NCBI GenBank assembly: GCA_902601705.1
Contig: CACKNV010000003.1
Coordinates: forward strand, 62,001 to 126,000
Source: an uncultured Pelagibacteraceae bacterium
Lineage (GTDB): Bacteria > Pseudomonadota > Alphaproteobacteria > Pelagibacterales > Pelagibacteraceae
Reading direction: 5' to 3'
DNA: 64,000 bases
The notes under the pieces are model-generated. The model was not told the DNA's origin. It did no database searches and saw only the letters and a program-made list of their open reading frames with translations. Both the position numbers and the translations under genes were made by a program. The number at the start of each line of letters is the position of its first letter. The first letter of the stretch is position 1. Below are positions 1 to 19,460 of this stretch, in pieces.

Positions 1-3
1 TTA

Positions 4-780
4 ATGAAAGGCAAAAAAGGCTTAATTATGGGAGTAGCTAACGAAAGATCAATTGCTTGGGGAATTTCTCAAAAACTTGCAGAAGCGGGCGCAGAGCTAG
101 CTTTTACTTATCTTGGTGATGCTTTGAAAAAAAGAGTAGTTCCCTTAGCAGAAAAATTGAATTCAAAAGTAACTTTTAGTTGTGACGTCGAAAAGAAAGA
201 AGAGATTGTTAAACTTTTTAAAGATATTAGAACAAAATGGGGTGAAATTGACTTTGTAGTTCATGCTGTAGCTTTCTCTGATAAATCAGAACTATCTGGA
301 GAATACTTAAACACTACGAGAGAGAATTTTCTTAGAAGTATGCTTATATCATGTTTCTCATTCACAGAAGTTTCAAAAGAAGCATCTAAAATAATGAAAG
401 ATGGTGGAAGTTTGTTAACTCTTACTTACGAGTCAACAAAAGCTATTCCAAATTACAATGTTATGGGAGTTTGTAAATCAGCATTAGAAGCTAGTGTGAA
501 ATATTTAGCAAGAGATCTTGGTAAAAAAAAAATCAGAGTAAATGCTATTAGCGCAGGTCCGATTAAGACCTTAGCTGCATCAGCTATAGGAGATGCAAAA
601 TTTTTATACAAATGGAATGAGGATCACTCATTCTTAAAAAGAAACGTAGACATCCATGATGTTGGTAATTCTGCTTTATATTTACTAAGTGACTTGGCTG
701 GAGGAGTCACCGGTGAAATTCACTATGTGGACGCAGGTTATAATAAAGTAGGTATGCCGGATCCAAAGAATATCATCTAA
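4..780 (+). CDS. fabI: Enoyl-[acyl-carrier-protein] reductase (NADH)
   Basis: MKGKKGLIMGVANERSIAWGI N-terminus and SDR fold typical of FabI. Confidence 0.95.
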   Translation: MKGKKGLIMGVANERSIAWGISQKLAEAGAELAFTYLGDALKKRVVPLAEKLNSKVTFSCDVEKKEEIVKLFKDIRTKWGEIDFVVHAVAFSDKSELSGEYLNTTRENFLRSMLISCFSFTEVSKEASKIMKDGGSLLTLTYESTKAIPNYNVMGVCKSALEASVKYLARDLGKKKIRVNAISAGPIKTLAASAIGDAKFLYKWNEDHSFLKRNVDIHDVGNSALYLLSDLAGGVTGEIHYVDAGYNKVGMPDPKNII

Positions 781-1558
781 ATACTCTTAAAGTTTTTAAA
801 GTTTTTTCTACGCAGAAATTAGTAAGATTTTGAATTATGTTTGGATTAGTCAAACTAATTATATAATTTAAATTAACTATTTTTTTATAATTTGACTCAA
901 TAAAAGATTCAAAATTTTTAAAACGATTAAAATCCCACTCATTTATATGCATTTGAGTTGATTGGATGCCAAATGGTAAAAAAATTTCTTTATAAAATAG
1001 TTGAGGAATAAATAAAATTTCACGCTTATAATATGGAAATAAACCGTAACCATCTATAACAATTTTAATTTGGGACTCTTTAAGTGCTTTTAAAGTATTT
1101 TCATCGTAAATATGGTTGGGAGCAAAGAAGCTTCTAATTTTAATATTTTCCCCCTCAAATTTTTTCAAACCAATTTTAATTTTTTTAAGTTGTGTATCAA
1201 AATCTAAACCGTAAAACTCTGAGTTTCCTCCGTAATTAAAGAAATCTTTTTTTTTTTCAGACTTTTGAGTATAAAGATGGTGACAACCATGCATTGCTAT
1301 TTCCCAGCCTTTGTTTTTCCAGCTCCTCACTCTTTCCCAAAATTTATTATTCCTTGAATGTTTTAATAGTTCTGGATCTTGATTAATAGGAATCACACCG
1401 AGTAAAGGTTTAATTTCATATTTATCAAATAACGACTCACATTTATCCATTAATTGCCAATTCATATTTTCGCAAATATCATCCATTCTTATAAGTAAGC
1501 CTGTATATTTTGAGAATTTTTTTTTTAAAAGATTAGTCATTATGTAATTATAGAACAA
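773..1558 (-). CDS. Polysaccharide deacetylase-like protein (DUF2334-type)
   Basis: IRMDDI, HGCHH and FAPNH motifs resemble a DUF2334/NodB-like deacetylase fold. Confidence 0.65.
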   Translation of the reverse strand: MFYNYIMTNLLKKKFSKYTGLLIRMDDICENMNWQLMDKCESLFDKYEIKPLLGVIPINQDPELLKHSRNNKFWERVRSWKNKGWEIAMHGCHHLYTQKSEKKKDFFNYGGNSEFYGLDFDTQLKKIKIGLKKFEGENIKIRSFFAPNHIYDENTLKALKESQIKIVIDGYGLFPYYKREILFIPQLFYKEIFLPFGIQSTQMHINEWDFNRFKNFESFIESNYKKIVNLNYIISLTNPNIIQNLTNFCVEKTLKTLRVFR

Positions 1559-1569
1559 TTTTAAAAAAT

Positions 1570-2478
1570 TTAAAGAATTAGATCAGAATTAAGAATATCA
1601 AAATTTTCTATATATTGAATATTATTACAATATAAATTTCTAGTTTTTGAAAATCCTACATATTTTTTTTTAAAAAAAAAGATATCTTCTTTATTCAGGA
1701 AATATTTAGATATTAGAAATACTTTAAAAGTTCTGCTTATAATATTTAAGATAATTTTAGAATTTTTTTCAAATAATTTCATATTAGAAATATATAATAA
1801 TTTAAAGATATTTAAGCCTTTTTTCTTTGCCTTCGTTCCTATGATTAAAATACTTTCACCAAAATCATCTTTCAGAAGAAGTTTTAAATAAATGTCATCT
1901 AGATAATTTTTTAGTACATCCCTTTTTTTTTCATCTAAATTTGAGAGTATTTCATCAACATTTCTAAAAATGGAAAATTTATTTTTTTTCCAAAAAAATA
2001 AATTCGTATTTAATATGAAATATTCTTTTATAGAAAATTTATTAAATCCAAGTTTTAGTAAAAGTCCTTTTAATGATTCCACTGGTGTAAAGGCAGTTAA
2101 TGAAATACTTTTATTTAAAAAATCAGATATTAAATAATATGAATACAATCTAAATGATTTAATTACTATCCAACTATGAATATTACAGACAATTATCTTT
2201 TCATTCTTACCTGGTCTATTTGAAAAATAGGTTCCTACGAAACCAACTATTTTTTTACTTTCTTTATTAATCATTGCAATTCCAATTGGAAAATTTTTAT
2301 TGCCTGATAAATGAAGTAATTTTGTAATATGATGAAAAGGTTGTAAATTTTGTTCTTTTATGAACTTAACTACGTCCCTGAAAAAATTTTCTTTCAAATA
2401 AACTTTTTTGAGGTCAAAAATTTTTGATGCTCTCAGATTCAATTGATCTATTTTTTTTATATCTATTTTTTCTTTCAA
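1570..2478 (-). CDS. Hypothetical protein, possible GNAT-like acyltransferase
   Basis: 302-aa ORF; N-terminal half has GNAT-like segments (GIAMINKESKKIVGFVGTYFS, LLLKLGFNKF). Confidence 0.5.
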   Translation of the reverse strand: MKEKIDIKKIDQLNLRASKIFDLKKVYLKENFFRDVVKFIKEQNLQPFHHITKLLHLSGNKNFPIGIAMINKESKKIVGFVGTYFSNRPGKNEKIIVCNIHSWIVIKSFRLYSYYLISDFLNKSISLTAFTPVESLKGLLLKLGFNKFSIKEYFILNTNLFFWKKNKFSIFRNVDEILSNLDEKKRDVLKNYLDDIYLKLLLKDDFGESILIIGTKAKKKGLNIFKLLYISNMKLFEKNSKIILNIISRTFKVFLISKYFLNKEDIFFFKKKYVGFSKTRNLYCNNIQYIENFDILNSDLIL

Positions 2479-2494
2479 TACCGAATACGCACAA

Positions 2495-4561
2495 TTATAC
2501 TTGCTTCATTGAAAGTTTAACTTTTCCTCTGTCAAAACCAACAACTTTTACGGAAACTTCATCGCCCTCTTTTACTACATCATTCACTTTTGCAACTCTT
2601 TTAGCAGCTAATTCTGAAATATGTACCAATCCATCTTGTTTTCCCAAAAAGTTAACAAAAGCACCAAATTCCATTATTTTTACAACTTTTCCTTTATAAA
2701 TTTTTCCCATTTCAGGCTTTGCTATTAAGTTTTTGATAAATTCGATTGCTCTATTTCTTGAAGCTTCATCTGGAGCAGCAACAGTTACCTCACCGGTATC
2801 TTTGACATCAACTTTAGCCCCAGATGTTTCTACTATTTCTCTTATTGTTGCTCCGCCCTTGCCAATTACCGTTGCAATATCTTTTTTATCAACTTTTATG
2901 GTCTCCATTTTTGGCGTATGTTTTGAAAATTCTTTTCTTGAGGTTTTAATTGCTTTATTCATCTCTTTAAGAATATATTCCCTTCCACTCTTAGCTTGAT
3001 TTAGAGCCTTTTCCATGATCTCAAAAGTAATACCTGTAATTTTAATATCCATTTGAAGAGAAGTAATTCCATCTTTCGTCCCTGCAACTTTAAAATCCAT
3101 ATCTCCCAAATGATCTTCGTCACCTAAAATATCTGATAGAACAGAGAAATCATCGCCTTCTTTAATCAACCCCATTGCTATTCCGGCAACAGGTTCTTTA
3201 ATAGGAACACCTGCATCCATCAATGAGAGTGAAGTTCCACAAACTGTAGCCATAGAAGAAGAACCATTCGACTCTGTTATTTCAGAAACTACTCTTAAAG
3301 TATAAGGAAAGTCCTCTTTTAAAGGTAATGAAGAGTTTATAGCTCTCCATGCTAATTTACCATGCCCGATCTCTCTTCTTCCAGTTCCGATCCTTCCACA
3401 TTCTCCTACTGAAAAAGGTGGAAAATTATAATGCAGCATAAAGTTTGATCTCTGCATACCATCAAGGCTTTCTAATCTTTGTTCATCGTCTGACATTCCA
3501 AGAGTCGTCACTACTAGTGCTTGTGTTTCTCCTCTTGTGAAAAGAGCTGATCCGTGTGTTCTAGGAAGCACACCTACTTCACATTTGATTTGTCTTACAT
3601 CAGCTAAACCTCTTCCATCTATTCTTTTTTTATCTTTTAAAATCGCTGTCCTAACAATATCTTTTTCAAGAGATTTTAACTGTGCCATTGATTGATTTTC
3701 AGTGACATTTTCGTCTTCCGCAAATATCTCTTTACATTGAGTCTCTATTTCAGAGATAGCTGTAGATCTTTTTTTCTTATCTATTTCTTTAAAAGCACTT
3801 CTTAAACCTTTTTCAAATTTATCAGATATTTTCTTTTTAACTTCAGAATGATCAATCTCTTCTACTTCCCACTTAGGTTTTCCAGCTTTTTTAGCTAATT
3901 TTTCAATCGCTTCGATTACAGGTATAAACTTCTCATGACCAAATTTTACTGCATCTAACATTATTTTTTCAGACAATCCTGATGTTTCGGACTCAACCAT
4001 TAAAACTGCATCTTTAGTTCCAGCAACAACTAGATCTAGCTTTGACTCTTTTAATTCCTCTATTGATGGATTTAATAAATATTTCCCATCTTTATATCCA
4101 ACTCTACTTGCAGCAATAGGTCCTTGAAATGGTAACCCTGATATTGCTAATGCTGCTGAAGATGCAATTATTGATAATATATCAGGTTGGTTTTCTCCAT
4201 CGTACGATAATACTGTGGGTAATATTTGTACTTCATTTAAGAAACTTGAGGGGAATAAAGGCCTAATAGGTCTGTCTATCAATCTTGAAATTAAAGTTTC
4301 AGCTTCTGTAGGTCTAGCCTCTCTTTTAAAATATCCTCCTGGAATTTTACCAGCTGCGTAATATTTCTCTTGGTAATTAACTGATAATGGAAAATAATCT
4401 TGTCCATCGTTTAATTTTTTTGCTCCCACAGCAGTTGCTATTACAACTGTTTCACCTAATGTAGCTATTATAGCTCCATCCGCTTGTCGGGCAACTTTGC
4501 CTGTCTCTAGAGTTAATTTTTTACCATTAACTTCTAATTCTTCTTTATGTATTTTAAACAT
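2495..4561 (-). CDS. pnp: Polyribonucleotide nucleotidyltransferase
   Basis: Full-length PNPase with KH ([12 protein letters not shown]) and S1 domains; downstream of rpsO. Confidence 0.98.
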
Positions 4562-4818
4562 TATTTCCTTAAATTTAATTGTTTGATAACCTTTTGATAG
4601 GACTCAACATTTTTCTTTTTAAGGTAAGTAAGTAGTTTTTTTCTTTTATTTACTGATTTAGTTAAGCCTAAAGTTGAATGTTTGTCCTTTTTAAATTTTT
4701 TAAAATGCTCCGATAATTTTATTATTTTATCAGTAAGTAAACCTATTTGGACCTCTGTTGAGCCAACATCTTTACCATGTAAACCAAGAGATTTAATTGT
4801 ATCTTTTTTTTTTATCAT
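4561..4818 (-). CDS. rpsO: 30S ribosomal protein S15
   Basis: [16 protein letters not shown] and [15 protein letters not shown] motifs. Confidence 0.97.
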
Positions 4819-5191
4819 TCTCTTTATTTTTTTTTATTATCTTTTCAATCTTTTCAGCATATTCAAATGAGTTATCTTCTACAAAATTGAGTTTAGGAAG
4901 AAACTTAATATCAAGCCTTTTAGATAAAGCTCTTCTAACAAGATGTGAGTTCTCCGTCAAGATCCTAACTGTTTCCTTGGTATCAACACCTCCAAGGGGA
5001 ATTATATAAACCCTTGCTGTTTTTAAATCTGGAGTCATTCTTACTTCAGTCACAGTAACTAACTTCGAGTTAATAGAGGGTATTTTCGCCTCATTTCTAA
5101 TAAATAATTCTCCAAGATTTTGTTTTACTAACTCACCAACTCTCAGTTGTCTTTGGCTATATGCTCTTTGTGATGTTTGATTGCTAGACAT
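4793..5191 (-). CDS. rbfA: Ribosome-binding factor A
   Basis: RVGELVKQNLGELF..VTVTEVRMTPDLKTARVYI; synteny with infB. Confidence 0.95.
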   Translation of the reverse strand: MSSNQTSQRAYSQRQLRVGELVKQNLGELFIRNEAKIPSINSKLVTVTEVRMTPDLKTARVYIIPLGGVDTKETVRILTENSHLVRRALSKRLDIKFLPKLNFVEDNSFEYAEKIEKIIKKNKENDKKKRYN

Positions 5192-7372
5192 TTAAATTGA
5201 TCTTTGAATTTTTTCTGCGAGATAAGATTCTATTACGTCTTTTTCTTTAAAATCTATAAAATCCTTAATACTTATACCACATTCTAACCCTGTCCCCACT
5301 TCTTTGACTTGATTTTTTTCTCTAAAGATAGATAAAATTTCTCCACTGTAAACAACTACTCCATCTCTTATAATCCTTGCTTTAGATTTGCTTTTTATTT
5401 CACCACTAATTACTTTTGAGCCAGCAATTTTTCCTGCATTTGATACTTTAAATATCTTTTGAATTTCAGCAGACCCGAGAACTGTCTCTTTGATATCCGG
5501 TTCCAGAAGTCCAGATAATGACTTTTCAACGTAATCTAGTGCTTCATAAATTATATTAAAATATTTAATATCAACTTTTTGCTCTTCAGCTAATTTTTTA
5601 GCCTCTCTGTTAGGTTTTACATTAAAACCCAATAAAATTGCATTGGATGCCTTAGCTAAAGATACATCTGTTTCATTGATCATTCCAATATCTGATAAAA
5701 TAATTTTTGCCTCGACTTCTTTGTGTTCAATCTTATTAATTGCCATTTTTAATGCTTCACTTGAGCCTTGTACATCAGATTTAATAATTATATTTAGCTC
5801 ATCTTTATCTTTAACATCTTCAAATAAAGTTGTTTTATCTTTTGCTAAAACTTTGTTTTGAGCTGTATTATTCCTTTTAAATTCGGATAATTTTTTAGCT
5901 TCATCCTCATCATCTGTCACTAAAAATTCAGCTCCTGCATTAGCTGAATTGTTCATACCGAGAATTTCAACCGGCATAGAAGGCAAGGCTTCGTTTACCA
6001 TTTTTCCCTCGTAGTCAATCATGGCTCTTATTTTTCCCCAGGTGTCGCCACATATAAAATAATCCCCTCTTTTTAATTTTCCATTGCTAATTAAAATTGT
6101 AGATACAGGTCCTTTGCCCTTATCGATTTTTGACTCAATAACCACACCTCTAGCTTTATCACTAAAAGACGCTTTTAAATCCAAAATCTCCGATTGTAAA
6201 AGTATAGACTCCTTGAGTTTGTCTAGATTCATTTTTTTTAATGCTGAAACTTCAACAAATAAAGTATCGCCGCTTAAATCCTCTGCTATCAGTTCATATT
6301 GCATCATTTCATTTTTAATTTTACTTATATTCTTTTCAGGCAAATCACATTTATTAATTGCTACAATTATTGGCACCTTTGCCGCTTTTGCGTGTTTTAT
6401 AGCTTCGACTGTTTGAGGTTTAATTCCATCGTCTGCTGCCACTACTAAAACAACAATATCTGTTATTTTAGAGCCTCTAGCTCTCATTTCAGTGAATGCT
6501 GCGTGACCTGGTGTATCAATAAAAGTAATTAATTTGTTATCCTCTGTTTTAACCTGGTACGCTCCAATATGTTGTGTGATTCCTCCATGTTCACCTGACA
6601 CTACATTTGTCTCTCTCAGAGAGTCTAATAATGAAGTTTTTCCATGGTCAACGTGTCCCATAATGGTAACTACTGGTGGCCTGCTTTTAATAATACCGCC
6701 AAAAGTCTCCTTGGATTTGCTTTTTTCTATCGATAACTTTTCCTCTAAAATAGGCTTATGACCAAACTCTTTTACAATATATTCAGCAGTATCTTTGTCT
6801 ATATTATGATTAATCGTTGCTACAACTTTCATGTTGAATAAAAACTTTATAATATCACTCGATTTTTCTGCCATTCTATTTGAAAGCTCTTGAATAGTAA
6901 TTTGTTCTGGTATTTTTACCTCTTTAATTACTTTTTTAAATTCTTTCTTTTCTTCACCCTCTGGTTTTTTCTTTTCTTTTAATCTTGCACGTTTCACTGA
7001 GGCTAAACTTCTTTGCTTAATCTCAATTTCTTCAACGTTTAAAGCCCTAGCAACAGTCAATTTAAAATCACGCTTGTCAACTGGGCCCTTTAATTTTAAT
7101 TTACTTTTTCCAGTAGGCTTATTATCTTTTTTAATAAAATCTTTAGTGGCTTTCTCCTCTGCAAACTTTCTTGCAAAGTTTTTTTTCTTTGGCTCATTAT
7201 TAAAGTTTATATTTGTCAAAGGTGATGTCTTATTTTGTGATTTATTAGATCTAAAGGACTTTTTTTTTTCTACAGAAAAAGATTTCTTGCCAGATGTGGA
7301 AATGGAGCTTGTATCAATTTTCTTTTTTAAGTTAGATGAAATAGTAAGTGTTTTTTTTTTATCTTTATCCAT
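5192..7372 (-). CDS. infB: Translation initiation factor IF-2
   Basis: GHVDHGKTSLLD, DTPGHAAF, NKCD GTPase motifs. Confidence 0.98.
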   Translation of the reverse strand: MDKDKKKTLTISSNLKKKIDTSSISTSGKKSFSVEKKKSFRSNKSQNKTSPLTNINFNNEPKKKNFARKFAEEKATKDFIKKDNKPTGKSKLKLKGPVDKRDFKLTVARALNVEEIEIKQRSLASVKRARLKEKKKPEGEEKKEFKKVIKEVKIPEQITIQELSNRMAEKSSDIIKFLFNMKVVATINHNIDKDTAEYIVKEFGHKPILEEKLSIEKSKSKETFGGIIKSRPPVVTIMGHVDHGKTSLLDSLRETNVVSGEHGGITQHIGAYQVKTEDNKLITFIDTPGHAAFTEMRARGSKITDIVVLVVAADDGIKPQTVEAIKHAKAAKVPIIVAINKCDLPEKNISKIKNEMMQYELIAEDLSGDTLFVEVSALKKMNLDKLKESILLQSEILDLKASFSDKARGVVIESKIDKGKGPVSTILISNGKLKRGDYFICGDTWGKIRAMIDYEGKMVNEALPSMPVEILGMNNSANAGAEFLVTDDEDEAKKLSEFKRNNTAQNKVLAKDKTTLFEDVKDKDELNIIIKSDVQGSSEALKMAINKIEHKEVEAKIILSDIGMINETDVSLAKASNAILLGFNVKPNREAKKLAEEQKVDIKYFNIIYEALDYVEKSLSGLLEPDIKETVLGSAEIQKIFKVSNAGKIAGSKVISGEIKSKSKARIIRDGVVVYSGEILSIFREKNQVKEVGTGLECGISIKDFIDFKEKDVIESYLAEKIQRSI

Positions 7373-7376
7373 AACA

Positions 7377-8927
7377 TTACTTGTACGCTATCTCTCTAGC
7401 TGACATAATTAAGTCATCAGCTTCTTTTCTTGAGAGAGAAAATTCTTCAAGATAACCTTCAATTCTAATTTTTTTTCCTTTAATCTCATCGTATCCGCCA
7501 ATTAGTTCATCTGAGGAAAGATCAGCAAAATCACTTAGTTTTTTAATATTTTTTTGTCCTAAAATTACCAACATCCCTTGAGTCATGCCTTTAAGATTTA
7601 TTAACTTTTCTTCAACACCCAAATCTTTTAATTTAAGTGCAACTGCCTCTTTTTCCTTTATAAGAGTTTCTTTAGACCTATTAATTAATTCTTTTGCTGT
7701 TTCATCATCAATAGCATCAATTTTGGAAATATCCTCTGGATTAGACTGAGCTATTTCATCTATTGATATAAATCCCTCTGATACCAAAAGTTGGCCCAAC
7801 GTCTCATCTACTTCTAAATTTTTAATTAAAGTCTCTGTTCTTTCTTTAAACTCAGCTTGTCTTCTTTCTGAGTCTTCCTTGTCTGTAAGAATATCAATTT
7901 CATAGTTTGTAAGCTTTGAGGCTAATCTTACATTTTGACCTCTTCTACCAATTGCTTTGCTTAAATTTTCCTCTGTTAAAATTATGTCAATTCTTTTGTT
8001 GTCTTGATCTATTAGAACTCTTTGTATTTCTGCAGGAGATAGGGACTCTGAAATTAAGGTTGGAAGATCCTCTGTCCACTTTATGATATCAATTTTTTCG
8101 CCATGTAGCTCGTTTACAATAGTTTGAACTCTACTTCCTCTCATACCAACACAAGCACCCACTGGATCAATTGATGAATCTTGCGAATGTACACAAATTT
8201 TAGCTCTACTTCCCGGGTCTCTAGCAACAGATTTAATTTCAATAGTTCCCTCGTAAATTTCAGGAACCTCTTGAAAAAACAACCTTGCAAGAAATTGTGG
8301 ATGTGCTCTAGACAAAAATATTTGATGGCCCTTCAATTCTTTTCTGACTTCATAACAATAAGCCTTTACCCTATCTCCTGTTTTTAATATTTCTCTCGGG
8401 ATAAGTTCATCTTTTTTTATTACTCCTTCAGCTTTTCCTAAATCAATTATAACGTTTCCGTACTCTAGTCTTTTTATAATACCGCTGAGTATTTGACCTT
8501 GTTTATCTATAAAATCAGCATACTGTCTATTTTTTTCTGCCTCCCTTACTCTAGTGCTTATTACTTGCTTGGCGCTTTGTGCAGCAATACGTCCAAAATC
8601 TATTTGTGGCAACTCTTCAAAAATTTTTTCACCAACTTTCAAATCTTTATTTTTAGGATTATTTTTTTTTGCATCTTCAAGTGTAATTTCTCTAGCTGAA
8701 TCTTCAACTTTTTCAACAACATCTAATACTTTTTGTATTTTAATATCTCCACTTTCTCTATCAATAACAACCTCAATGTTGTTATCATTACCGAATTTAG
8801 TGAGTGCTGCTTTTTGAATAGCACTTTCCATCGAACCAATTACAAGTTCTTTATCGATAGATTTTTCATTAGCGACAGCTTCTACTATTCTTAAAAGTTC
8901 TAATTTGTCTAAACCTCTATTTAACAT
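7377..8927 (-). CDS. nusA: Transcription termination/antitermination protein NusA
   Basis: S1/KH domains (GACVGMRGSRVQ, AIGRRGQNVRLA). The ORF track extends to 8963, but those extra codons translate the terminator hairpin; ATG at 8927 (MLNRGLDKLELL) with AGGA SD is preferred. Confidence 0.96.
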   Translation of the reverse strand: MLNRGLDKLELLRIVEAVANEKSIDKELVIGSMESAIQKAALTKFGNDNNIEVVIDRESGDIKIQKVLDVVEKVEDSAREITLEDAKKNNPKNKDLKVGEKIFEELPQIDFGRIAAQSAKQVISTRVREAEKNRQYADFIDKQGQILSGIIKRLEYGNVIIDLGKAEGVIKKDELIPREILKTGDRVKAYCYEVRKELKGHQIFLSRAHPQFLARLFFQEVPEIYEGTIEIKSVARDPGSRAKICVHSQDSSIDPVGACVGMRGSRVQTIVNELHGEKIDIIKWTEDLPTLISESLSPAEIQRVLIDQDNKRIDIILTEENLSKAIGRRGQNVRLASKLTNYEIDILTDKEDSERRQAEFKERTETLIKNLEVDETLGQLLVSEGFISIDEIAQSNPEDISKIDAIDDETAKELINRSKETLIKEKEAVALKLKDLGVEEKLINLKGMTQGMLVILGQKNIKKLSDFADLSSDELIGGYDEIKGKKIRIEGYLEEFSLSRKEADDLIMSAREIAYK

Positions 8928-8940
8928 TTTGTTATTCCTA

Positions 8941-8966
8941 AAAAAAAATGGGCTTAAGCCCATTTT
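8941..8966 (-). terminator. Rho-independent terminator/attenuator between metK and nusA
   Basis: AAAATGGGCTTAAGCCCATTTT perfect palindrome (9-bp stem, TTAA loop) followed on the minus strand by a T tract. Confidence 0.85.
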
Positions 8967-9019
8967 GAAAAGTTTAATTATTTATTAATTTTTAGAAGAA
9001 AATTATGGTTTTTTCAAGA

Positions 9020-10183
9020 TTACACTTTAAATAAATCTATTTTATCAGTCTTTTCCCAAGTAAATTCGCCCTTATCTGTAGGCTTCCTGCCAAAATGACC
9101 GTATGCAGACGTAATTTCATATATGGGGTTGTTAAGATTTAGCATTTCTCTAATACCTCTAGGAGATAAGTTAAAATTGTCCTCTATTAATTTTTTCACT
9201 TTATTGACTTTAGATTCATCCCCGCTTGCTAATTTAACAAAGATTGATAAAGGTTTGGATACCCCAATAGCATATGCTAGCTGTATCAAACATTTTTCTG
9301 AAACTCCCGCTGCTACAATATTTTTTGCTAAATATCTTGAAGCATAAGCTGCTGACCTATCAACTTTTGTGGGATCTTTGCCTGAAAATGCTCCTCCACC
9401 ATGTGGCGCTGCTCCTCCATAAGTATCAACAATTATCTTTCTACCAGTTAATCCCGTATCACCATCTGGCCCACCTATTATAAATTGGCCAGTAGGATTT
9501 ATATAAATTTCATTGGGATCAAGATCGGTTAAAAGATTTTCGGGAATTGATTTTTTTATATATGGAATAACTGATTCTCGTACATTTTCTTGATTAAGAT
9601 CTTTAGAGTGTTGAGTTGAAATAACAACAGAAGTTACTTTTACAGGTTTTTCATTTTCGTATAACATTGTTACTTGGCTTTTTGAGTCTGGTTCAATACC
9701 TTTTAAGGTTCCTTTTTTTCTATCCTCCGCCATTAATCTTAAAATTTTGTGAGAATAATGAATGGGAGCTGGCATTAGTTCGTCTGTTTCGTTGCATGCA
9801 TATCCAAACATAATACCTTGGTCGCCAGCTCCTTCATCCTTGTTATCTTTGGAGTCAACGCCCATTGCTATATCTGCAGATTGTTCATGAAGAAATGTTT
9901 CAATATTAGCAGTTTTCCAACTAAAACCATCCTGATCATAACCAATATCTTTGATACAATCTTTAACTTTAGAAATTAGTTCCTCTTTATTAATTTTAGG
10001 TCCTCTAGTTTCTCCAGCAAGAACAACCTTGTTGGTAGTTGTAAGTGTTTCACAAGCAACTCTTGAAACAGGGTCTTTTGATAAATAAGAGTCGACAACC
10101 ATATCTGAAATTCTGTCACATACTTTATCTGGGTGTCCCTCAGAGACCGACTCACTAGTGAATAAATAATTATTATTTTCCAT
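9020..10183 (-). CDS. metK: S-adenosylmethionine synthetase
   Basis: [47 protein letters not shown] motifs. Confidence 0.98.
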
Positions 10184-11738
10184 TTTGTTTATTGTAAATT
10201 AAAAAGATAAAAAGATATGTAATTAAAAGTGCAAAAAAGATCAAATCATTTTTAATTTTATTTGATTTTATTAAAGGTACTTCAAATTCTATACTTCCAG
10301 CCTCATTTCTGTTTAATGTTTTTACAATATTGCCCTTATTATCTATAATTGCACTTATACCTCGATTTGCTGATCTCAATAAAAAAGTATTATTCTCTAT
10401 GGCTCTAAAAATTGATTTTACAAAATGCTGGTCCGGCCCTATAGATTGACCAAACCAACCGTCTTCAGAAATATTTATTAAAAGATTAGTATTTTCATCT
10501 GACTTTTGTATTAAGTCTGTAAAAATTATTTCATAGCAAATTAATGGTAAAATATTTAGATTTTCAATAATTAGATTGTTATCTTCAATGCCTTTTAAAT
10601 AAGAACCATGTCCCTCAGTAATTTTCTTAAGACCTAATTTCTTAAGCGCAGTTTCGAAGGGTAAAAACTCTCCAAACGGGACAAGCTTCCTTTTATTATA
10701 GCTTTTGATAATATCAAAGTTGTTATTAACCACTATCATGCTGTTGTAAAATTTACCCGATAAAATATCCATTTTATTTGTTCCAAATACTATAAAATGT
10801 TTCTCAGAAAAATTATTTAAGATTAGTTCTTTAAAAGAAATAATTTCATTGTAACTATATCCACTAAATACACCTTCAGGCCAGATAAATAATGTTTTTT
10901 TATTTTTGTCTGGATCGCTATATTTTATTAATTTATCAAATCTTTCTTGTATCTCTTTAGGTTCAAGTCCATATTTTAAATTAAAATTTGGGCCAATAAT
11001 TTTTACATATATCTTTTCTTTTACTGTGCCTAAGTAAAAATTATTTTTATTTATTAAGTAATTTCCATAAATGTATAAAAACAAAATAGCTGTAAAAATA
11101 CTTACAGATATAAATACCTTTTTAATTGAACTTAGCCTATAAAAGAAAATTACTGGCAAAGTAAAAAATGTTATTACTAAAAGATTATAAGAATATAATC
11201 CAATAAAGTTTATGATTTGTAAAATTTCAATAGCACTTGACGTACTGTAAGCCCATAAGTTCCAAGGAAAACCTGTTAGCAAAATACCTCTCAAATAATC
11301 CGAAAAGGCTAAACTGCTGGCAAAAATTAATAATGAGGAAAAATCTAATTTCAAATATTGTCCTACAAACAATGTAACAAAACCAATAAACAAACTTAAA
11401 AATAGTGGAATTAATATAAGCGCGAAAGGAATTAAAATCGCAAAATTTTCATCAAATGTAAGTGAGTTTGTAATCCAAGAAATTCCACTTAAATAAAATG
11501 CAAAGCCAAAAGTTGATCCAAATATGAATAGATTTTTCTTATAAGGTTTTTGTCGGTAAACAGACTTAGATTTTTTATTTATATAAACTAATAAGTAAAA
11601 GAAAATAGGAAAAATAATAAAATTTATTAATGTAAAATTAAATGGAGCAAAAGATAATATACTTAATGAACCAAGAGCAAAAGGGGCTATGTATAAAATA
11701 AAAAAACGATTATTTAAATATTTTTCAAGCATTAACAA
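10173..11738 (-). CDS. lnt: Apolipoprotein N-acyltransferase
   Basis: Multi-TM N-terminus plus nitrilase-like domain; FVIFGTNK, FGEFLPF, ICYEIIF. Confidence 0.9.
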
Positions 11739-12195
11739 AATTTAAATATTTTTTTTCAATTCTTCGCATAATTTTAAAATCATTGTCGCTTTTATGATCA
11801 TATCCAAACAAATGAACTAATCCATGTATCCATAGATTATCAAATTGTAATTTAAAATTTTTTTTAACATTTTTACTTTTTATCTTGTTTAAATTAATAA
11901 TTATGTCTCCTAGATAAATTTCTTCTTTTAATTTTAATTTTTTTTTTAGCTCTTTTTTGGTTTGAAATGGAAATGACAATATATCTGTTGCTTTACTTTT
12001 TTTTCTAAATTTTTTGTTAAGGCTTTTAATTTCTTTATTTCCAGAGAGTAATAAAGTACAAAAAATTTTATTTCTTTTAAATTTTTTTTCTTTTAGGTTT
12101 AATTTAACAATTTTTCGATCTAGATAATCATTTGGTTTTTTTAAATAGTTAAACCAATTATTATTACTTGTAATAACATTAATCTTTATCATCAA
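11725..12195 (-). CDS. ybeY: Endoribonuclease YbeY (16S rRNA maturation)
   Basis: ATDILSFPF and HGLVHLFGYDH motifs. Confidence 0.95.
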   Translation of the reverse strand: MMIKINVITSNNNWFNYLKKPNDYLDRKIVKLNLKEKKFKRNKIFCTLLLSGNKEIKSLNKKFRKKSKATDILSFPFQTKKELKKKLKLKEEIYLGDIIINLNKIKSKNVKKNFKLQFDNLWIHGLVHLFGYDHKSDNDFKIMRRIEKKYLNFVNA

Positions 12196-13183
12196 TGCTT
12201 TTATTTTGATAAGCTTTAATGATTTTTGAAACTAGTGGATGCCTTACTACATCATGGTGATCAAATTCAATTACTTTAATTTCTTTAAGATCTTGAAGGA
12301 TATTTCTTGATTTAATCAAACCAGAGTCTCTCTTGTTTATTAAATCTACTTGGCTTGGATCTCCATTAACAACTAATTTAGAATTCTCACCTATTCTTGT
12401 GAGAAACATTTTGATTTGAGTTTCTGTCGCATTTTGCGCTTCATCTAAAATCGCAAAGCAATTTTTTAAAGTTCTACCTCTCATAAATGCTAATGGAGCT
12501 ATTTCTATTTCACCCATTTCAATTTTTTTATCTATTTTATCAGCACCAAAAAGTTCATAAAGAGCATCATATAGAGGTCTTAAATATGGATCGACTTTTT
12601 CCTTCATATCACCTGGCAAAAAACCTAATTTTTCACCAGCTTCAACTGCTGGCCTAGATAAAATTACTCTATCAATTTTTTTTTCCATTAATAAAGTTAC
12701 TGCAACAGATACAGCTAGAAAACTTTTCCCTGTACCCGCTGGCCCAAGTGACATAATGATATCACTTTCTTTTAAAGCCTTAATATATTCTGATTGTTTT
12801 TCAGATCTTGCGATTACTGACTTTTTTGGAGTCTTTATTAATTGTTTGAAACTTTTAACATTGGACTCCTCAATCTCTAAATTTTTTTTCACAGACAGAA
12901 CTATATCCTCTTTTTCAATTATATTCGTTAAAAAATATTTATTAATTAAAAATTTAATAGCGTCACAAAATATTGATAATTTTTCTTTACCACCCTTACA
13001 AGTAATTGAATTTCCTCTAAAAAAAACATTGGTATCAGTTAACTTAGATAAACTTTTAAGATTCTGATCAAATTGACCAACTATTGCCATTAACATTTCA
13101 TTGTCATTTATTGAAATGTTTACTGTTTCTTTATCAATCTTTTTTATAACAAGGCTTTGCTCTAATTTGCTTATTTCTGACAT
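12179..13183 (-). CDS. ybeZ: PhoH-like ATPase (YbeZ)
   Basis: SLGPAGTGKSFLAV Walker A, LDEAQNAT, GDPSQVDL. Confidence 0.93.
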   Translation of the reverse strand: MSEISKLEQSLVIKKIDKETVNISINDNEMLMAIVGQFDQNLKSLSKLTDTNVFFRGNSITCKGGKEKLSIFCDAIKFLINKYFLTNIIEKEDIVLSVKKNLEIEESNVKSFKQLIKTPKKSVIARSEKQSEYIKALKESDIIMSLGPAGTGKSFLAVSVAVTLLMEKKIDRVILSRPAVEAGEKLGFLPGDMKEKVDPYLRPLYDALYELFGADKIDKKIEMGEIEIAPLAFMRGRTLKNCFAILDEAQNATETQIKMFLTRIGENSKLVVNGDPSQVDLINKRDSGLIKSRNILQDLKEIKVIEFDHHDVVRHPLVSKIIKAYQNKSIDDKD

Positions 13184-13187
13184 TTAT

Positions 13188-14522
13188 TTAAGCAGCATAA
13201 TTGGTTTGACTTGAATTTAATATAACTTCACCAAATAATGTGTTCTGGTTTACTTTTACAATATTAACATTTTTAATCTTCCCTGTTAAATCATTATTAC
13301 TTTCAACAATTACTGAATTGAAATGTTCATCTCGTCCAAAATATTTATTCCCACTTTTCATTTTATTTTCAAATAATACATTTACTGTTTTATTTATTAA
13401 CTTTTTTCTATAATTAGATTTGATATCCTCACCTACTTGTTGGAACTCTAGTAGTCTATTTTTTGCGTCTTTTTCATTTATTTTATCTAATTTAAAAGCT
13501 GGAGTGCCTGGCCTTGCGCTAAATATAAAAGAGAATGAATTAATAAACCTAATTTTAGTCATCAGTTTGACAGTTTTTTTAAAGTCATCATATGTTTCAC
13601 CAGGATAACCAATTATGAAATCGCTTGAAAATTTAATATCTGGTTTAACTTTAATTAATTTTCTTACAATCTCTAAATATTCTTCAATAGTGTGTTTTCT
13701 ATTCATTGCCTTCAATATTTTATTTGATCCACTCTGTACAGGTAAATGTATTAAAGGCATTAACTTTTCACATTTTTGATGTACTTCAATTAAATCTTCC
13801 GAAAAATCTATTGGATGAGATGTTGTATATCTAATTCTTTTTAAATTTTTTATTTTAGATATTTCTTTTATCAAATCTGAAAGTTTCTTTCCCTTAAAAT
13901 TATAAGCATTAACATTTTGCCCAAGTAAATTAATTTCTCTTGCGCCATTTTTAACTAATTGATTTGCCTCTGATACTAATTCTTCCATTGATCTTGAATA
14001 TTCTGCTCCCCGGGTGTAAGGAACAACACAAAATTTACAAAATTTATCACATCCCTCTTGAATAGTTAAAAATGATGAAATTCTATTATCTGTATTTTTT
14101 AATATATTTAAACTGTCGAATTTTTCTATAACATCAAATTCTGTAATATTAATAGGATTTAATTTTTTTTCTAATTTTGAAATCGTATCATTAATTTGAT
14201 GATATGACTGTGGACCTATAATTGCGTCTATATATTTTTCCTTTTTTAAAAGAATATTGCCTTCTGCTTGTGCAACACAACCAACTATCAAAACAATGGG
14301 TTTAGGTTTATTTTTAAACTTCTTTTTGACTCTTCCAATGTCATGATAAACTTTGTCTGTAGCTTTTTCTCTTATATGACAAGTGTTTAAAATATAGCAG
14401 TCTGCTTCACACAAATTATCTGTATGCGTGTAATTAATCTTCTTTGTCAAATCCAAAATACGATTACTATCGTACTCATTCATTTGACATCCAAAAGTTT
14501 TGATATAAATTTTTTTTTGCAA
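13188..14522 (-). CDS. miaB: tRNA-2-methylthio-N6-dimethylallyladenosine synthase
   Basis: TFGCQMNEYDS; radical-SAM CDKFCKFC; TRAM-like C-terminus. Confidence 0.96.
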   Translation of the reverse strand: MQKKIYIKTFGCQMNEYDSNRILDLTKKINYTHTDNLCEADCYILNTCHIREKATDKVYHDIGRVKKKFKNKPKPIVLIVGCVAQAEGNILLKKEKYIDAIIGPQSYHQINDTISKLEKKLNPINITEFDVIEKFDSLNILKNTDNRISSFLTIQEGCDKFCKFCVVPYTRGAEYSRSMEELVSEANQLVKNGAREINLLGQNVNAYNFKGKKLSDLIKEISKIKNLKRIRYTTSHPIDFSEDLIEVHQKCEKLMPLIHLPVQSGSNKILKAMNRKHTIEEYLEIVRKLIKVKPDIKFSSDFIIGYPGETYDDFKKTVKLMTKIRFINSFSFIFSARPGTPAFKLDKINEKDAKNRLLEFQQVGEDIKSNYRKKLINKTVNVLFENKMKSGNKYFGRDEHFNSVIVESNNDLTGKIKNVNIVKVNQNTLFGEVILNSSQTNYAA

Positions 14523-14523
14523 A

Positions 14524-14949
14524 TTATTTTTTTATCTTTGAACCATAAAGCTCTAACTTATGATCAACTAATTTATAACCTAATTTTTTTGCAACCTCAT
14601 TCTGCAGTTTTTCTATATCTTTATCGACAAATTCTATAATTTCTCCACTATTTATATCTATAAGATGATCATGATGTTCATCAAGGGATGGTTCGTACCT
14701 TGCTTTACCTCCTTTAAAATCATGTTTCTCTAAAATACCTGACTCCTCAAATAATTTTACTGTTCGATAAACTGTAGCAATACTAATTTTTTTATCTATT
14801 TCTGAGACTCTCTTGTGTAATTCATCTACATCTGGATGATCTTTTGAACCATAAACTTCTTTAGACTCTGATAAGACTTTTGCTATTATCTTTCTTTGAT
14901 CAGTGAGTCTCACACCCTTTAGTTGACATTTTTGCTCGATTGCATTCAT
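14524..14949 (-). CDS. fur: Fur-family transcriptional regulator
   Basis: RLTDQRKIIAKVL, ISIATVYRTVKLFEESGIL, EHHDHL. Confidence 0.9.
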   Translation of the reverse strand: MNAIEQKCQLKGVRLTDQRKIIAKVLSESKEVYGSKDHPDVDELHKRVSEIDKKISIATVYRTVKLFEESGILEKHDFKGGKARYEPSLDEHHDHLIDINSGEIIEFVDKDIEKLQNEVAKKLGYKLVDHKLELYGSKIKK

Positions 14950-14959
14950 ATTTCTTAAT

Positions 14960-15340
14960 TTAACTTAAATATATTGGTTTAATCAAATTTTTTTGTATTA
15001 ATTTTTTTTTAATTAAAAGTTCAATATTAACAAGGTTAAATTGCCCTAAATCTGAATTTTTATATCCAAATAAATTAATTTTTTTTGATATTTTTATACC
15101 TTTCGCTACTGCTAAAGAAACTCTCGTGGATGAAAAGCTGCCCGGTCCATTATTAACCAACACTGAAAAATTCTTGCAAAGATTTACTTTGTGTTTTTTT
15201 ATCATATTTAATATGCTGGCTACTAACTGTTCGTTATCAGTTTTTTGATCAAAATCATGAATATAAAAATTATTATTTATTTTCAAACCAATTTTGTTTT
15301 CTTTGCCTATGAGATTTATAATTAAGAAATCTTTAATCAT
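14960..15340 (-). CDS. tsaB: Short TsaB-like protein (tRNA t6A biosynthesis)
   Basis: NNGPGSFSSTRVSLAVAKGI corresponds to the TsaB motif GPGSFTGLR..AKGL; only 126 aa; synteny with fur/miaB. Confidence 0.75.
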   Translation of the reverse strand: MIKDFLIINLIGKENKIGLKINNNFYIHDFDQKTDNEQLVASILNMIKKHKVNLCKNFSVLVNNGPGSFSSTRVSLAVAKGIKISKKINLFGYKNSDLGQFNLVNIELLIKKKLIQKNLIKPIYLS

Positions 15341-16364
15341 TTATTTTGTTATATCTATTTTATCTTTTCAAAACAATTTGTATTCAAATTCTCCAAAAGA
15401 AAAGATCGACGATTTTGGTATTATTTCTCTTATGTATCACAGATTTGAAGAAAATAAGTATCCTTCTACTAATATAAGAATAAACAATTTTAAAGAACAT
15501 TTAAAAATTATCGAAGGAAATAATATAAAATTTATAAATCCTAAAAATTTTGAAAATGAACTAAAAAATAATAAGTTACAAAGAAAAATACTTTTAACTA
15601 TCGATGATGGCTTTCTATCATTTTATAAAAATGCTTGGCCAATTCTTAAAAACAAAAAAATACCTTTTATTTTGTTTATAAGTACTCGCGAAGTAGGAGC
15701 ATTTAATTACATGTCATGGGAACAGATTAAAGAAATAAGTAAAGAGGACTTTGTAGAAATAGGTAATCATAGCCACACGCACGAATACTTAGCAGATGAA
15801 AATAGTGAAACTATAAAAAAAGATATTGAAAAATCAATATCAATTTTTAAAAAAAACCTAGGTAAAAATTCTATTTTTTTTTCATATCCTTTTGGTGAAT
15901 ATAGTAATGATTTCAAAAACATAATAAAAAATTTTAATTTTAAATATGCGTTTGGCCAACATTCTGGTGTAATAGATGAAACAAAAGATTTTTATGAATT
16001 GCCCAGATACCCTATTAATGAAAAATATGGAGAAATTAAGAGATTTTCATCTTTAACAAAAACTTTACCTTTTAAATACAAGAAAATTTATCCTGATGAA
16101 AAATATCTTTCTCAAAATAAAAACCCACCAAACGTAAAAATACAATTTTATGAAAATATTGAAAATCTTAAATCTGTCGGATGTTACTCTAATGAAGGAA
16201 ATAATTGGAGGAAGTCAGATATCAAATTTGAGAATTCCAATACGCTTTTAATTAATATTTCTGAGAAATTTGTTGGGGAAAGAGGAAGAATTAATTGTTC
16301 GCTGAGAGATCCTAGTGGTTTATGGCGATGGTTAGGGATTCAATTTGTAATAGGCGAAAATTAA
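15309..16364 (+). CDS. Polysaccharide deacetylase (NodB-like), secreted
   Basis: Signal-peptide N-terminus MRFIIKKSLIIYFVISILS; LTIDDGFLSFYKNAWPIL; IGNHSHTHEYL. Track gives TTG start at 15294; ATG at 15309 preferred. Confidence 0.85.
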   Translation: MRFIIKKSLIIYFVISILSFQNNLYSNSPKEKIDDFGIISLMYHRFEENKYPSTNIRINNFKEHLKIIEGNNIKFINPKNFENELKNNKLQRKILLTIDDGFLSFYKNAWPILKNKKIPFILFISTREVGAFNYMSWEQIKEISKEDFVEIGNHSHTHEYLADENSETIKKDIEKSISIFKKNLGKNSIFFSYPFGEYSNDFKNIIKNFNFKYAFGQHSGVIDETKDFYELPRYPINEKYGEIKRFSSLTKTLPFKYKKIYPDEKYLSQNKNPPNVKIQFYENIENLKSVGCYSNEGNNWRKSDIKFENSNTLLINISEKFVGERGRINCSLRDPSGLWRWLGIQFVIGEN

Positions 16365-16365
16365 C

Positions 16366-17892
16366 TTAAGAGGATAGTTCAATTTTTTTAACAGAGTTTA
16401 CTAATCTTACTGGTTCAAAATCCGTTAATCTATTTTGTTTAATTATCTGATTTAATATTTTTGTATATTCAGCTCCTGTTTGTGCATAGTTATTTAATGT
16501 TTCTGTTAACTCTAATCCTTTAATAATTTTGTTTTTATCTCTAAGGTCTAATCTTTTTTGTCTAAATTTAGAGTAACTTTTGTGAGTATTAAGATTATTT
16601 TGGTAAGCTTTTACGGAAGCTCTTAAAATTGGAAATTTTAGGATTTTATGATTTTTATTACTTTCTCTGTCTAACGGTGCGATTCCTTGTCCGCTCCAAG
16701 TCCATTGTCCAAAAATAGCATTCCCTTCTAAAGCAAATCTTGAAGTACCCCATCCGCTTTCTTTAGCTGCTTGGGCAAGAGCTATTGATGTTGGTATAAT
16801 ATCCATTCGAACAATTAATTCTTTTAAATCACCTTTTTTAACTTTATATTCTAATAGTTTTTGTCTTAACCATTGTTTTTCTAAATCTGTGGTAAATTTC
16901 TTTTTACTTACTGTTAATAATTTTTCTCTATCCGCCAGTATTCTTTCATTTTCAGCAACAATTAAAGGTAAGACAATTTTTATAAATGTTTCTTTCTTTA
17001 ATTTTGTATTTTGTAAAGCATCAAGATCTCTTGGAAACTGAGTAAAATATATAGGTTTAACGACTTTTTGCACTCTAACTTTACCCAAATCATATTCGAC
17101 ATCTTTAAAAAGATTCAAAACTGTCTCTGTTTTCAAATTTAAATTAGGTAAAATAACTTCATCTACACTTTTTCTTTTTACTTCAAGCTTAGGTTTTTCC
17201 TTTGATTTATTTACTTCTTTTTTAATATCTGGTTTCTTAATTTCTTGTTTTTTTACCTCTTTTTTGATTTCTGGCTTTTTAACATCTTTTTTAATTTCTG
17301 GCTTTTTCACCTCTTTTTTAATTTCTGGTTTATTTGATAATTCGCCTTCATAAAAATAATTTGCACCACTAAAGCCGATCGTTGTTATAACGACAACAGA
17401 TGCAATGCCAATAATCCCTTTTTTAGCTTTTTGAGGTTCTATTTGTTGTTTATAAATGCCATGGAACAAATCAGTAAAGAGATTTCCAAAAAATCCATAA
17501 ACTACTTTTCCTAACATCGGAATAATATTTAAGAAATTTAAACCTATTTTACCAAGTTGGATCCATAAATCTTTAAAGGCTCGGCTGATTTTTCTATTTG
17601 TATCAAGTTTAAAATTTTCAAACTTTCTTATCGCTCTATTTTTATCTTTTATTTTATTGTCTTTAAATTCCTTTAAATTGGTTTTAAATTTTCCAACAGG
17701 TTTAATAATATTATCTCTTAAAAAATTTGATTTAAAATCTTTCGGAATAGTAATTTTATTTTTTTTTAATATTAGTTCTAATTGACCAGAAGTTAGATTC
17801 TTTCTACTTTTTTCATAGTCTTTAATCTCTTTAACATCATAGATATATGCAAGTTCTACTAATTTATCTCTATAGCTTAATTTTTTTTTCAT
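16366..17892 (-). CDS. Glucosaminidase / Bax-like peptidoglycan hydrolase with KPEIKKEVK repeat linker
   Basis: LAQAAKESGWGTSRFALEGNAIFGQWTW motif; TM segment; low-complexity repeats. Confidence 0.85.
   Translation of the reverse strand: MKKKLSYRDKLVELAYIYDVKEIKDYEKSRKNLTSGQLELILKKNKITIPKDFKSNFLRDNIIKPVGKFKTNLKEFKDNKIKDKNRAIRKFENFKLDTNRKISRAFKDLWIQLGKIGLNFLNIIPMLGKVVYGFFGNLFTDLFHGIYKQQIEPQKAKKGIIGIASVVVITTIGFSGANYFYEGELSNKPEIKKEVKKPEIKKDVKKPEIKKEVKKQEIKKPDIKKEVNKSKEKPKLEVKRKSVDEVILPNLNLKTETVLNLFKDVEYDLGKVRVQKVVKPIYFTQFPRDLDALQNTKLKKETFIKIVLPLIVAENERILADREKLLTVSKKKFTTDLEKQWLRQKLLEYKVKKGDLKELIVRMDIIPTSIALAQAAKESGWGTSRFALEGNAIFGQWTWSGQGIAPLDRESNKNHKILKFPILRASVKAYQNNLNTHKSYSKFRQKRLDLRDKNKIIKGLELTETLNNYAQTGAEYTKILNQIIKQNRLTDFEPVRLVNSVKKIELSS
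17205..17330 (-). repeat. Degenerate ~27-bp tandem repeat encoding (P-E-I-K-K-E/D-V-K-K)n
   Basis: Repeated PEIKKEVKK/PEIKKDVKK/PEIKKEVKK/QEIKKPDIKKEVNK inside the Bax-like CDS; approximate bounds. Confidence 0.8.
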
Positions 17893-18440
17893 TGTTCAGC
17901 CTCAACCGAATTTACCTCTTTTACGTAGTGTTTTAAAAGATTTTGAACACCTTGTTTAAGAGTCATCAAAGAACTAGGGCAACCTGAACAGCTTCCTTGT
18001 AGCTGTACTTTTACAACTCCATTTTCAAAAGATATAAACTTTATATCTCCTCCATCTCTTGCCACAGCTGGACGTATTTTTGTATCTAGAACTTCAACAA
18101 TTTTATTCACAATTTCGTTATCGGTATGGCTATTTTCCCCTTTTTTTTTAATTTCTTTTAGTATCGGCTCATCATTTTTTTCAAAATAATCATTCAGGTG
18201 TGAAATCACCATAGGTTTTAGCTCATTCCATGAAACTTCTTTAGTTTTTTTAACTGAGATAAATTTCTCTGATAACAAAATCAATTCTACACCTTTAAAA
18301 TTTAATAATTCTTTGACAAAAGGAATTTTTATTTCATTTTCTTTCTCCTTCTTAAACTCCTCAGTTCCGACAGCTGATAATGTTCTCTCTGACAAAAACT
18401 TTAAAGAATCCGGATTGGGTGTGTTTTCTGTTTGTATCAT
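17889..18440 (-). CDS. NifU-like Fe-S scaffold protein (Nfu)
   Basis: MIQTENTPNPDSLKFL; GSCSGCPSSLMTLKQGVQNLL. Confidence 0.93.
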   Translation of the reverse strand: MIQTENTPNPDSLKFLSERTLSAVGTEEFKKEKENEIKIPFVKELLNFKGVELILLSEKFISVKKTKEVSWNELKPMVISHLNDYFEKNDEPILKEIKKKGENSHTDNEIVNKIVEVLDTKIRPAVARDGGDIKFISFENGVVKVQLQGSCSGCPSSLMTLKQGVQNLLKHYVKEVNSVEAEQ

Positions 18441-18452
18441 AAAAGTTTTATA

Positions 18453-19460
18453 TTATATCAAGCCTACTTTTTCACGTATATTCTTTAGGTTTTCCTCAGC
18501 AATTATGTTAGCTTTTTCGCTACCTTTTTTAAGAATATTTTTTAAATGCGACTTATCTTCAAGTAATTTTTGAATTTCTTTACCAACCGGCGTTATTTCA
18601 TTGATTAAAGCTTCAGCTAATTTTTTTTTTAAAAAAGAATATTCCTTACCAGCCATTTCTGAGATAATTTTTTCTAAACTACTTTTAGTTAATTCAGAAT
18701 AAATAGTAAGAAGATTTAAAGCTTCTGGTTTTTTTTCTAATGATTTAACCTCTCCAGGAATTGAGTCGGAATCTGACTTTGCTTTTTTTATTTTTTTATT
18801 AATTTCGTCAGCACTATCCCTTAAATTGATTCTTGAATAATCAGATTCTTCAGATTTGCTCATTTTTTTTGTCCCTTCTCTTAAACTCATAACTCTAGAA
18901 ATATGTTTAGGTATCAATGGTTCTGGTAAAGGAAAGAAATCTTTGCAATTAAAGTCTTTATTAAATTTTTGGGCTATATCACGAGATAATTCTAAGTGCT
19001 GTTTTTGGTCTGCTCCAACTGGCACATGAGTAGCTTTGTAAAGCAAAATATCTGCAGCCATCAAATTTGGATAGATGTAAAGTCCGACACTAGCTTTTTC
19101 TTTATCTGATCCAGCTTTGTCTTTGAATTGTGTCATTCTATTCAACCAACCAATTCTTGAAACGCAGTTTAAAATCCAAGCCAGCTCTGCATGCCCAGAA
19201 ACTGAAGATTGATTAAAAATTATACTTTTATTAGGATCTAAACCAGTTGCTAAAAAACTTGCCGTGGTTTCTAACACGTTTTCATGTAATTGATTAGGTT
19301 CTTGAAAAATAGTAATCGCATGTAAATCAACAACGCAATAAATACATTCCATCTCTTTTTGTAACGAAACAAAGTTTTTAAGCGCTCCTAAATAATTTCC
19401 CAAATGAAGATTTCCTGTTGGTTGAACACCTGAAAATACTAATTTATTTTTGCTCATCAA
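18453..19460 (-). CDS. trpS: Tryptophanyl-tRNA synthetase
   Basis: [22 protein letters not shown]. Confidence 0.97.

Follow-up and report, generated by a model that had tools for sequence, protein, structure and literature searches.

A terminator hairpin before the SAR11 nusA operon as a probable rimP-less derivative of the rimP-leader attenuator

Introduction

The start of the nusA operon in SAR11 bacteria raises a simple question: what is the role of an apparent intrinsic terminator placed directly before the start codon of a gene that must be transcribed through it? The example considered here lies in a 64,000-nt stretch of DNA (the window) that is part of a 1.08-Mb SAR11 genome. A first-pass annotation, made from the letters alone, had placed a hairpin and U tract directly before the Shine-Dalgarno sequence and ATG of nusA on the minus strand, and had found no room for a promoter between the hairpin and the start codon. 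It also allowed for a promoter within 8967-9019 and suggested that NusA might control the hairpin as an attenuator.

The hairpin and its surroundings

The identities of lnt, metK, nusA, infB, rbfA, rpsO and pnp were confirmed with Pfam and NCBIfam models, and their spacing suggests that nusA is co-transcribed with infB-rbfA-rpsO-pnp. The relevant features of the window are as follows.

2495-7372, minus strand: infB-rbfA-rpsO-pnp, the downstream genes of the presumed operon (Pfam)
7377-8927, minus strand: nusA, 516 aa (TIGR01953, 4e-121; NusA_N, S1 and KH domains)
8936-8939, minus strand: AGGA, the Shine-Dalgarno-like sequence of nusA
8940-8948, minus strand: T9 tract, its first four T residues paired at the base of the stem (T9 in 148 of 149 loci, T10 in the other)
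8945-8966, minus strand: terminator hairpin AAAATGGGC-TTAA-GCCCATTTT, 9 bp with a 4-nt loop, supported by its stem, its fold, its presence at 149 of 149 loci and cross-family covariation (AAAATGGGC 8966-8958, TTAA loop 8957-8954, GCCCATTTT 8953-8945)
8967-8988, minus strand: short variable stretch, judged by column conservation, with a predicted transcription start at about 8982
8989-8994, minus strand: predicted -10 element TAAAAA, weak in this species, after a 17-nt spacer
9012-9017, minus strand: predicted -35 element TTGAAA, beginning 3 nt after the metK stop codon
9020-10183, minus strand: metK, the upstream gene in the same direction (TIGR01034, 4e-148)

The hairpin and T tract are thus where they had been described (8966-8945 and 8948-8940). 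The perfect 9-bp stem forms a 22-bp palindrome in the window, begins 53 nt past the metK stop codon and is the sole terminator there. The nusA ATG (8927-8925) follows 17 nt after the end of the stem and 12 nt after T9, which leaves no room for a promoter downstream of the hairpin and rules out that placement, as the annotation had held. The 35-nt element has a minimum free energy of -11.4 kcal/mol, and equal stability was reached in none of 200 shuffles. Within positions 1-20000 of the window this is the top terminator-like site; however, a generic terminator scan of the same region yielded no overall excess (7 found, 6.0 expected), and conservation is therefore the real test of the hairpin.

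By coincidence, an ATG inside the stem (position 8963) is in frame in the window, such that the called open reading frame is 528 aa instead of 516 aa. We reject this extended nusA start as a product of chance because the spacing between hairpin and ATG differs among relatives. Gene callers may nevertheless choose the in-stem ATG.

Conservation among the Pelagibacterales

The nusA loci represent the genus itself, its sister genera and a second family of the order. A few species entered twice because they are present in two collections, and set g1 also contains other genera. At each of the 149 Pelagibacterales loci that extend to the nusA 5' end, the hairpin is in the same place, an outcome opposite to the absence or lack of conservation that would have spoken against the first-pass proposal. 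A 24-base pattern, AATGGGCNNNNGCCCATTTTTTTT, occurs as one copy per genome in 62 genomes, always at the nusA locus. It is absent from all second-family genomes, where the stem is of the type AAAGTGGGTTAAGCCCACTTT; the stem of family f1 is TGGGC..GCCCA.

This conservation can be set against that of the adjoining gene. Among 46 loci with nusA of equal length and a mean protein identity of 88.5%, fourfold-degenerate sites are saturated (identity 0.382, with 0.356 expected), none of the 86 fourfold sites is invariant, and the longest unvarying run in nusA is 5 nt. In the same 46 loci, GGGC and GCCCA plus T9 are identical throughout, and the loop is variable.

Compensatory changes between families, another check proposed at the outset, were sought in 48 distinct sequences from SAR11 and other Alphaproteobacteria. 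Overall, 98.4% of cells are paired, and there are 26 double-change cells compared with 8.9 in shuffles, a number matched in none of 500 shuffles. Most of the double changes are exchanges of G-C for A-U at one pair, G-U pairs are tolerated at several positions of the stem, and sliding the partner strand abolishes the signal. The stem pairing is real. Three G-C pairs never vary, and the next pair after GGG/CCC is C-G in 39 of the 48 sequences. The invariant GGG/CCC exceeds what pairing needs, although it arises partly by construction since the rows from outside SAR11 were picked by a GGG..CCC search.

The gene upstream of nusA is metK in some genera and a different gene elsewhere (g6, g8, g9 and f2), and the hairpin stays with nusA in either case. 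In the latter genera and family (loci L152, L154-L161 and L112-L131), the extra gene between metK and nusA is probably trmB. It is gone from that place in g1, g7 and g10.

A predicted promoter upstream of the hairpin

A promoter between metK and the hairpin is supported by a recurrent -35-like element. TTGA lies 55-66 nt upstream of GGG in 137 of the 149 loci, compared with a mean of 10.4 and a maximum of 22 in shuffles, and an A/T-rich hexamer usually follows 16-18 nt beyond it in the SAR11 loci. The counterparts of the weak -10 element in other genera read TATATT, TATAGA or TAGAAT. In this AT-rich DNA the total promoter score is no better than that of shuffles, so positional conservation is the sole support for the promoter. 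About 50 SAR11 loci (e.g. L138 and L044) have a second recurrent TTGA, often as TTGAAATTTCAA, 14-16 nt ahead of GGG and near the predicted start site.

The bases from the predicted start or -10 element to the hairpin are mostly variable, and we saw no sign there of an antiterminator, an aptamer or riboswitch, or a leader peptide, for which the stretch before the hairpin is too short. We reject an antiterminator or riboswitch reading for this lack of a conserved upstream element.

Other terminators of the same genome

A strict search of 464 kb of the same genome, taken as stretches, returned ten intergenic terminator matches. Several of the other terminators also stand directly before a start codon, most of them after a transporter binding-protein gene and one in the metX leader. 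One position-matched control, before the amino-acid permease gene of an ABC-transporter operon, is well conserved in the genus with a constant T8, which means that conservation within a genus is by itself no proof of regulation, and we have softened the argument from invariance accordingly. In the second family this control terminator has unrelated stems with T6-T7. The special feature of the nusA hairpin is that stem and T length are kept across families, not that it is tightly conserved within the genus.

The nusA hairpin is the weakest of seven folded terminators of this genome (-11.4 compared with -15.9 to -22.8 kcal/mol). Two other terminators in the genome have stems of the GGGGGC..GCCCCC type; the full nusA motif occurs once per genome.

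The survey also yielded two observations on other genes. Strong terminators separate a solute-binding-protein gene from the gene that follows, at 10-25 nt from the start of the latter (L169:8797, L172:16434, L173:13666 and L184:11116); these are likely intra-operon attenuators that would set the binding protein above the permease. Upstream of metX (L183:11994-12111, minus strand), a SAM_alpha match of 25.5 bits, below the cut-off of 36, stands ahead of GCCCAGTTTAGCTGGGC-T9, which overlaps the start region, and both are kept in the genus. This leader probably combines a SAM riboswitch with a terminator and has diverged too far to pass the Rfam cut-off.

The hairpin in other Alphaproteobacteria and the apparent loss of rimP

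In a wider sample of one genome per family across the Alphaproteobacteria (77 representatives), a GGG..CCC hairpin with a T run precedes rimP or nusA in 42 families, mostly 500-700 nt upstream of nusA. The corresponding controls were 7 of 77 on the opposite strand and 5 of 77 with CCC..GGG. GTGGG is found within 37 of the 42 stems, and the common form outside SAR11 is GTGGGC-loop-GCCCAC with a T run, placed ahead of rimP where this gene opens rimP-nusA-infB. Where the genes between hairpin and nusA were tested, they encode RimP in ten of ten cases.

By contrast, rimP was undetected in all 148 Pelagibacterales genomes that are at least 90% complete, by a search that does recover the gene from Caulobacter and from most of the class. 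It was likewise undetected in seven other alphaproteobacterial families, mostly with small genomes (G365, G374, G377, G383, G401, G415 and G418). Two of these keep a GGG..CCC terminator before nusA: GGTGGG-TTAT-CCCGCC-T9 directly before the gene at locus L326, and a GGGCGGGG-type terminator at L334. No such motif precedes nusA in the other five, and retention of the leader is therefore not universal after rimP loss.

Discussion

A functional terminator is very likely present in the nusA leader, and we believe that it is probably the alphaproteobacterial form of the rimP-leader, acting as a transcription attenuator through which NusA feeds back on its own operon. RNA polymerase would start about 15-20 nt upstream of the hairpin and make the GGGC hairpin and T9. 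A fraction of rounds would stop there, with release of an RNA of roughly 40-45 nt, and the remaining polymerases would read on into nusA-infB-rbfA-rpsO-pnp. NusA would make stopping at this comparatively weak hairpin more frequent, such that more NusA would give less nusA transcription with no need for an antiterminator, riboswitch or leader peptide. Transcripts arriving from metK would be ended by the same hairpin. With rimP apparently lost in SAR11, the leader now lies directly against nusA. For SAR11 in particular, feedback by NusA through the hairpin is likely, if less assured than termination itself. A further idea, which we offer tentatively and consider rather doubtful, is that NusA on the paused polymerase reads the GGGC stem as sequence, in which case the hairpin would be terminator and binding site at once and the feedback loop would have outlived rimP throughout SAR11.

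Several observations count against this reading. The terminators of Bacillus subtilis that depend strongly on NusA are described as weak and/or as having interrupted U-tracts, whereas T9 is a good, uninterrupted one. The predicted -10 element is weak in this species, and only two of the seven other rimP-less families keep the terminator.

The most serious alternative, though an unlikely one, is that the hairpin is a plain terminator of the upstream unit and that nusA is expressed without feedback, through constitutive leakage or read-through. Its distance from metK, with no other terminator there, agrees with this, as do the other terminators of this compact genome that stand directly before a downstream start, mostly between binding-protein and permease genes. 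However, from one family to another the control terminator stays in position but changes in stem and T length, whereas the nusA hairpin retains TGGG..CCCA and T9. Between the upstream gene and the hairpin there is a conserved -35-like element, and the hairpin precedes rimP-nusA across the class. Because it stays with nusA where the upstream gene differs, it is not merely a metK terminator, and we reject that reading in its exclusive form.

Another reading, less probable still, retains the attenuator and assigns the GGGC stem to a different factor, such as NusG, Rho-linked factors, S15, IF2 or another RNA-binding protein. The invariant GGGC/CCC beyond pairing needs would suit this, and Naville and Gautheret (PMC2965389) also argue for a protein that reads the sequence. 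Set against it, the leader follows nusA, NusA autoregulation is reported in Escherichia coli and B. subtilis (PMC2965389, PMC12288461), and RimP itself would be excluded as the SAR11 effector if it is truly absent. It is very improbable that the 22-bp palindrome is instead a DNA operator bound by a dimeric repressor, even though it is perfect in the window and sits beside the predicted promoter: T9 is strand-specific, and the G-U pairs and compensatory A-U/G-C exchanges fit RNA pairing rather than a symmetric DNA site.

The proposed effectors of the most frequent predicted bacterial attenuator are RimP and NusA. SAR11 amounts to a natural, order-wide rimP deletion with a nearly unchanged leader, and it can thereby separate the two candidates. 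Since the leader is kept directly against nusA though rimP is undetected, its persistence argues for NusA and against RimP. The finding suggests that NusA feedback control has been kept in a regulatory repertoire that ranks among the most reduced of free-living organisms, and the SAR11 leader offers a minimal, single-hairpin test template.

Comparison with known systems

The proposal of an attenuator is supported as to kind and was already known in outline, because the element belongs to a previously described class-wide leader and matches the rimP-leader (PMC2965389) as well as the mechanism reported for B. subtilis (PMC12288461). What our comparison adds is that SAR11 seems to keep the leader without rimP. 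In the main text of Meyer 2009, neither nusA nor metK is mentioned among the candidate structured RNAs of Pelagibacter. Rfam models gave nothing above cut-off in the window or in 15 alphaproteobacterial loci; RF01770, which models the gammaproteobacterial form of the rimP-leader, reached 15.3 bits at low threshold compared with a cut-off of 47, and did so on the other strand.

Of all predicted attenuators, the rimP-leader is described as the most ubiquitous: a terminator before rimP-nusA-infB whose GGGc..gCCC stem is conserved and unusual, which lacks an antiterminator and for which NusA, or perhaps RimP, is suspected to be the effector (Naville and Gautheret 2010, PMC2965389). The SAR11 element likewise lies in the 5' leader of the nusA-infB operon near the start codon. 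It has the GGGC/GCCC stem in 46 of 46 g1 loci, has T residues directly after the stem (T9 in 148 of 149), and stands within the described 4-130 nt of the first operon gene (17 nt from the stem, 12 nt from T9). A larger conserved element or antiterminator is absent from SAR11 too. A further trait of the rimP-leader is a stem motif not shared with other terminators; in this genome, GGGGGC..GCCCCC-type stems occur in two other terminators. Among the features of stem, tail, distance, antiterminator and gene order, the sole departure is that the SAR11 operon begins with nusA rather than rimP. The f1 stem, TGGGC..GCCCA, also differs from the GTGGGC..GCCCAC common in other Alphaproteobacteria, and its T9 is nearly invariant. 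Given that the same hairpin precedes rimP in the rimP-bearing members of the class, we describe the SAR11 leader as a putative rimP-less derivative of the rimP-leader, not as a full member.

Several Gammaproteobacteria have a tandem terminator/antiterminator, in contrast to the one hairpin of SAR11. Autoregulation of nusA is also reported for B. subtilis, by way of termination that NusA stimulates in the 5' leader (Mondal et al. 2016, as reported in PMC12288461). The effect of NusA is greatest on suboptimal terminators. In B. subtilis, as proposed for SAR11, the amount of transcription that enters the operon depends on termination in the leader, although the B. subtilis leader is about 180 nt long (PMC2965389) and that of SAR11 would be about 55 nt. 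In E. coli, NusA represses its own nusA-infB operon (Plumbridge 1985 and Nakamura 1985, cited in PMC2965389), and the same relation between NusA and its operon is what we propose for SAR11.
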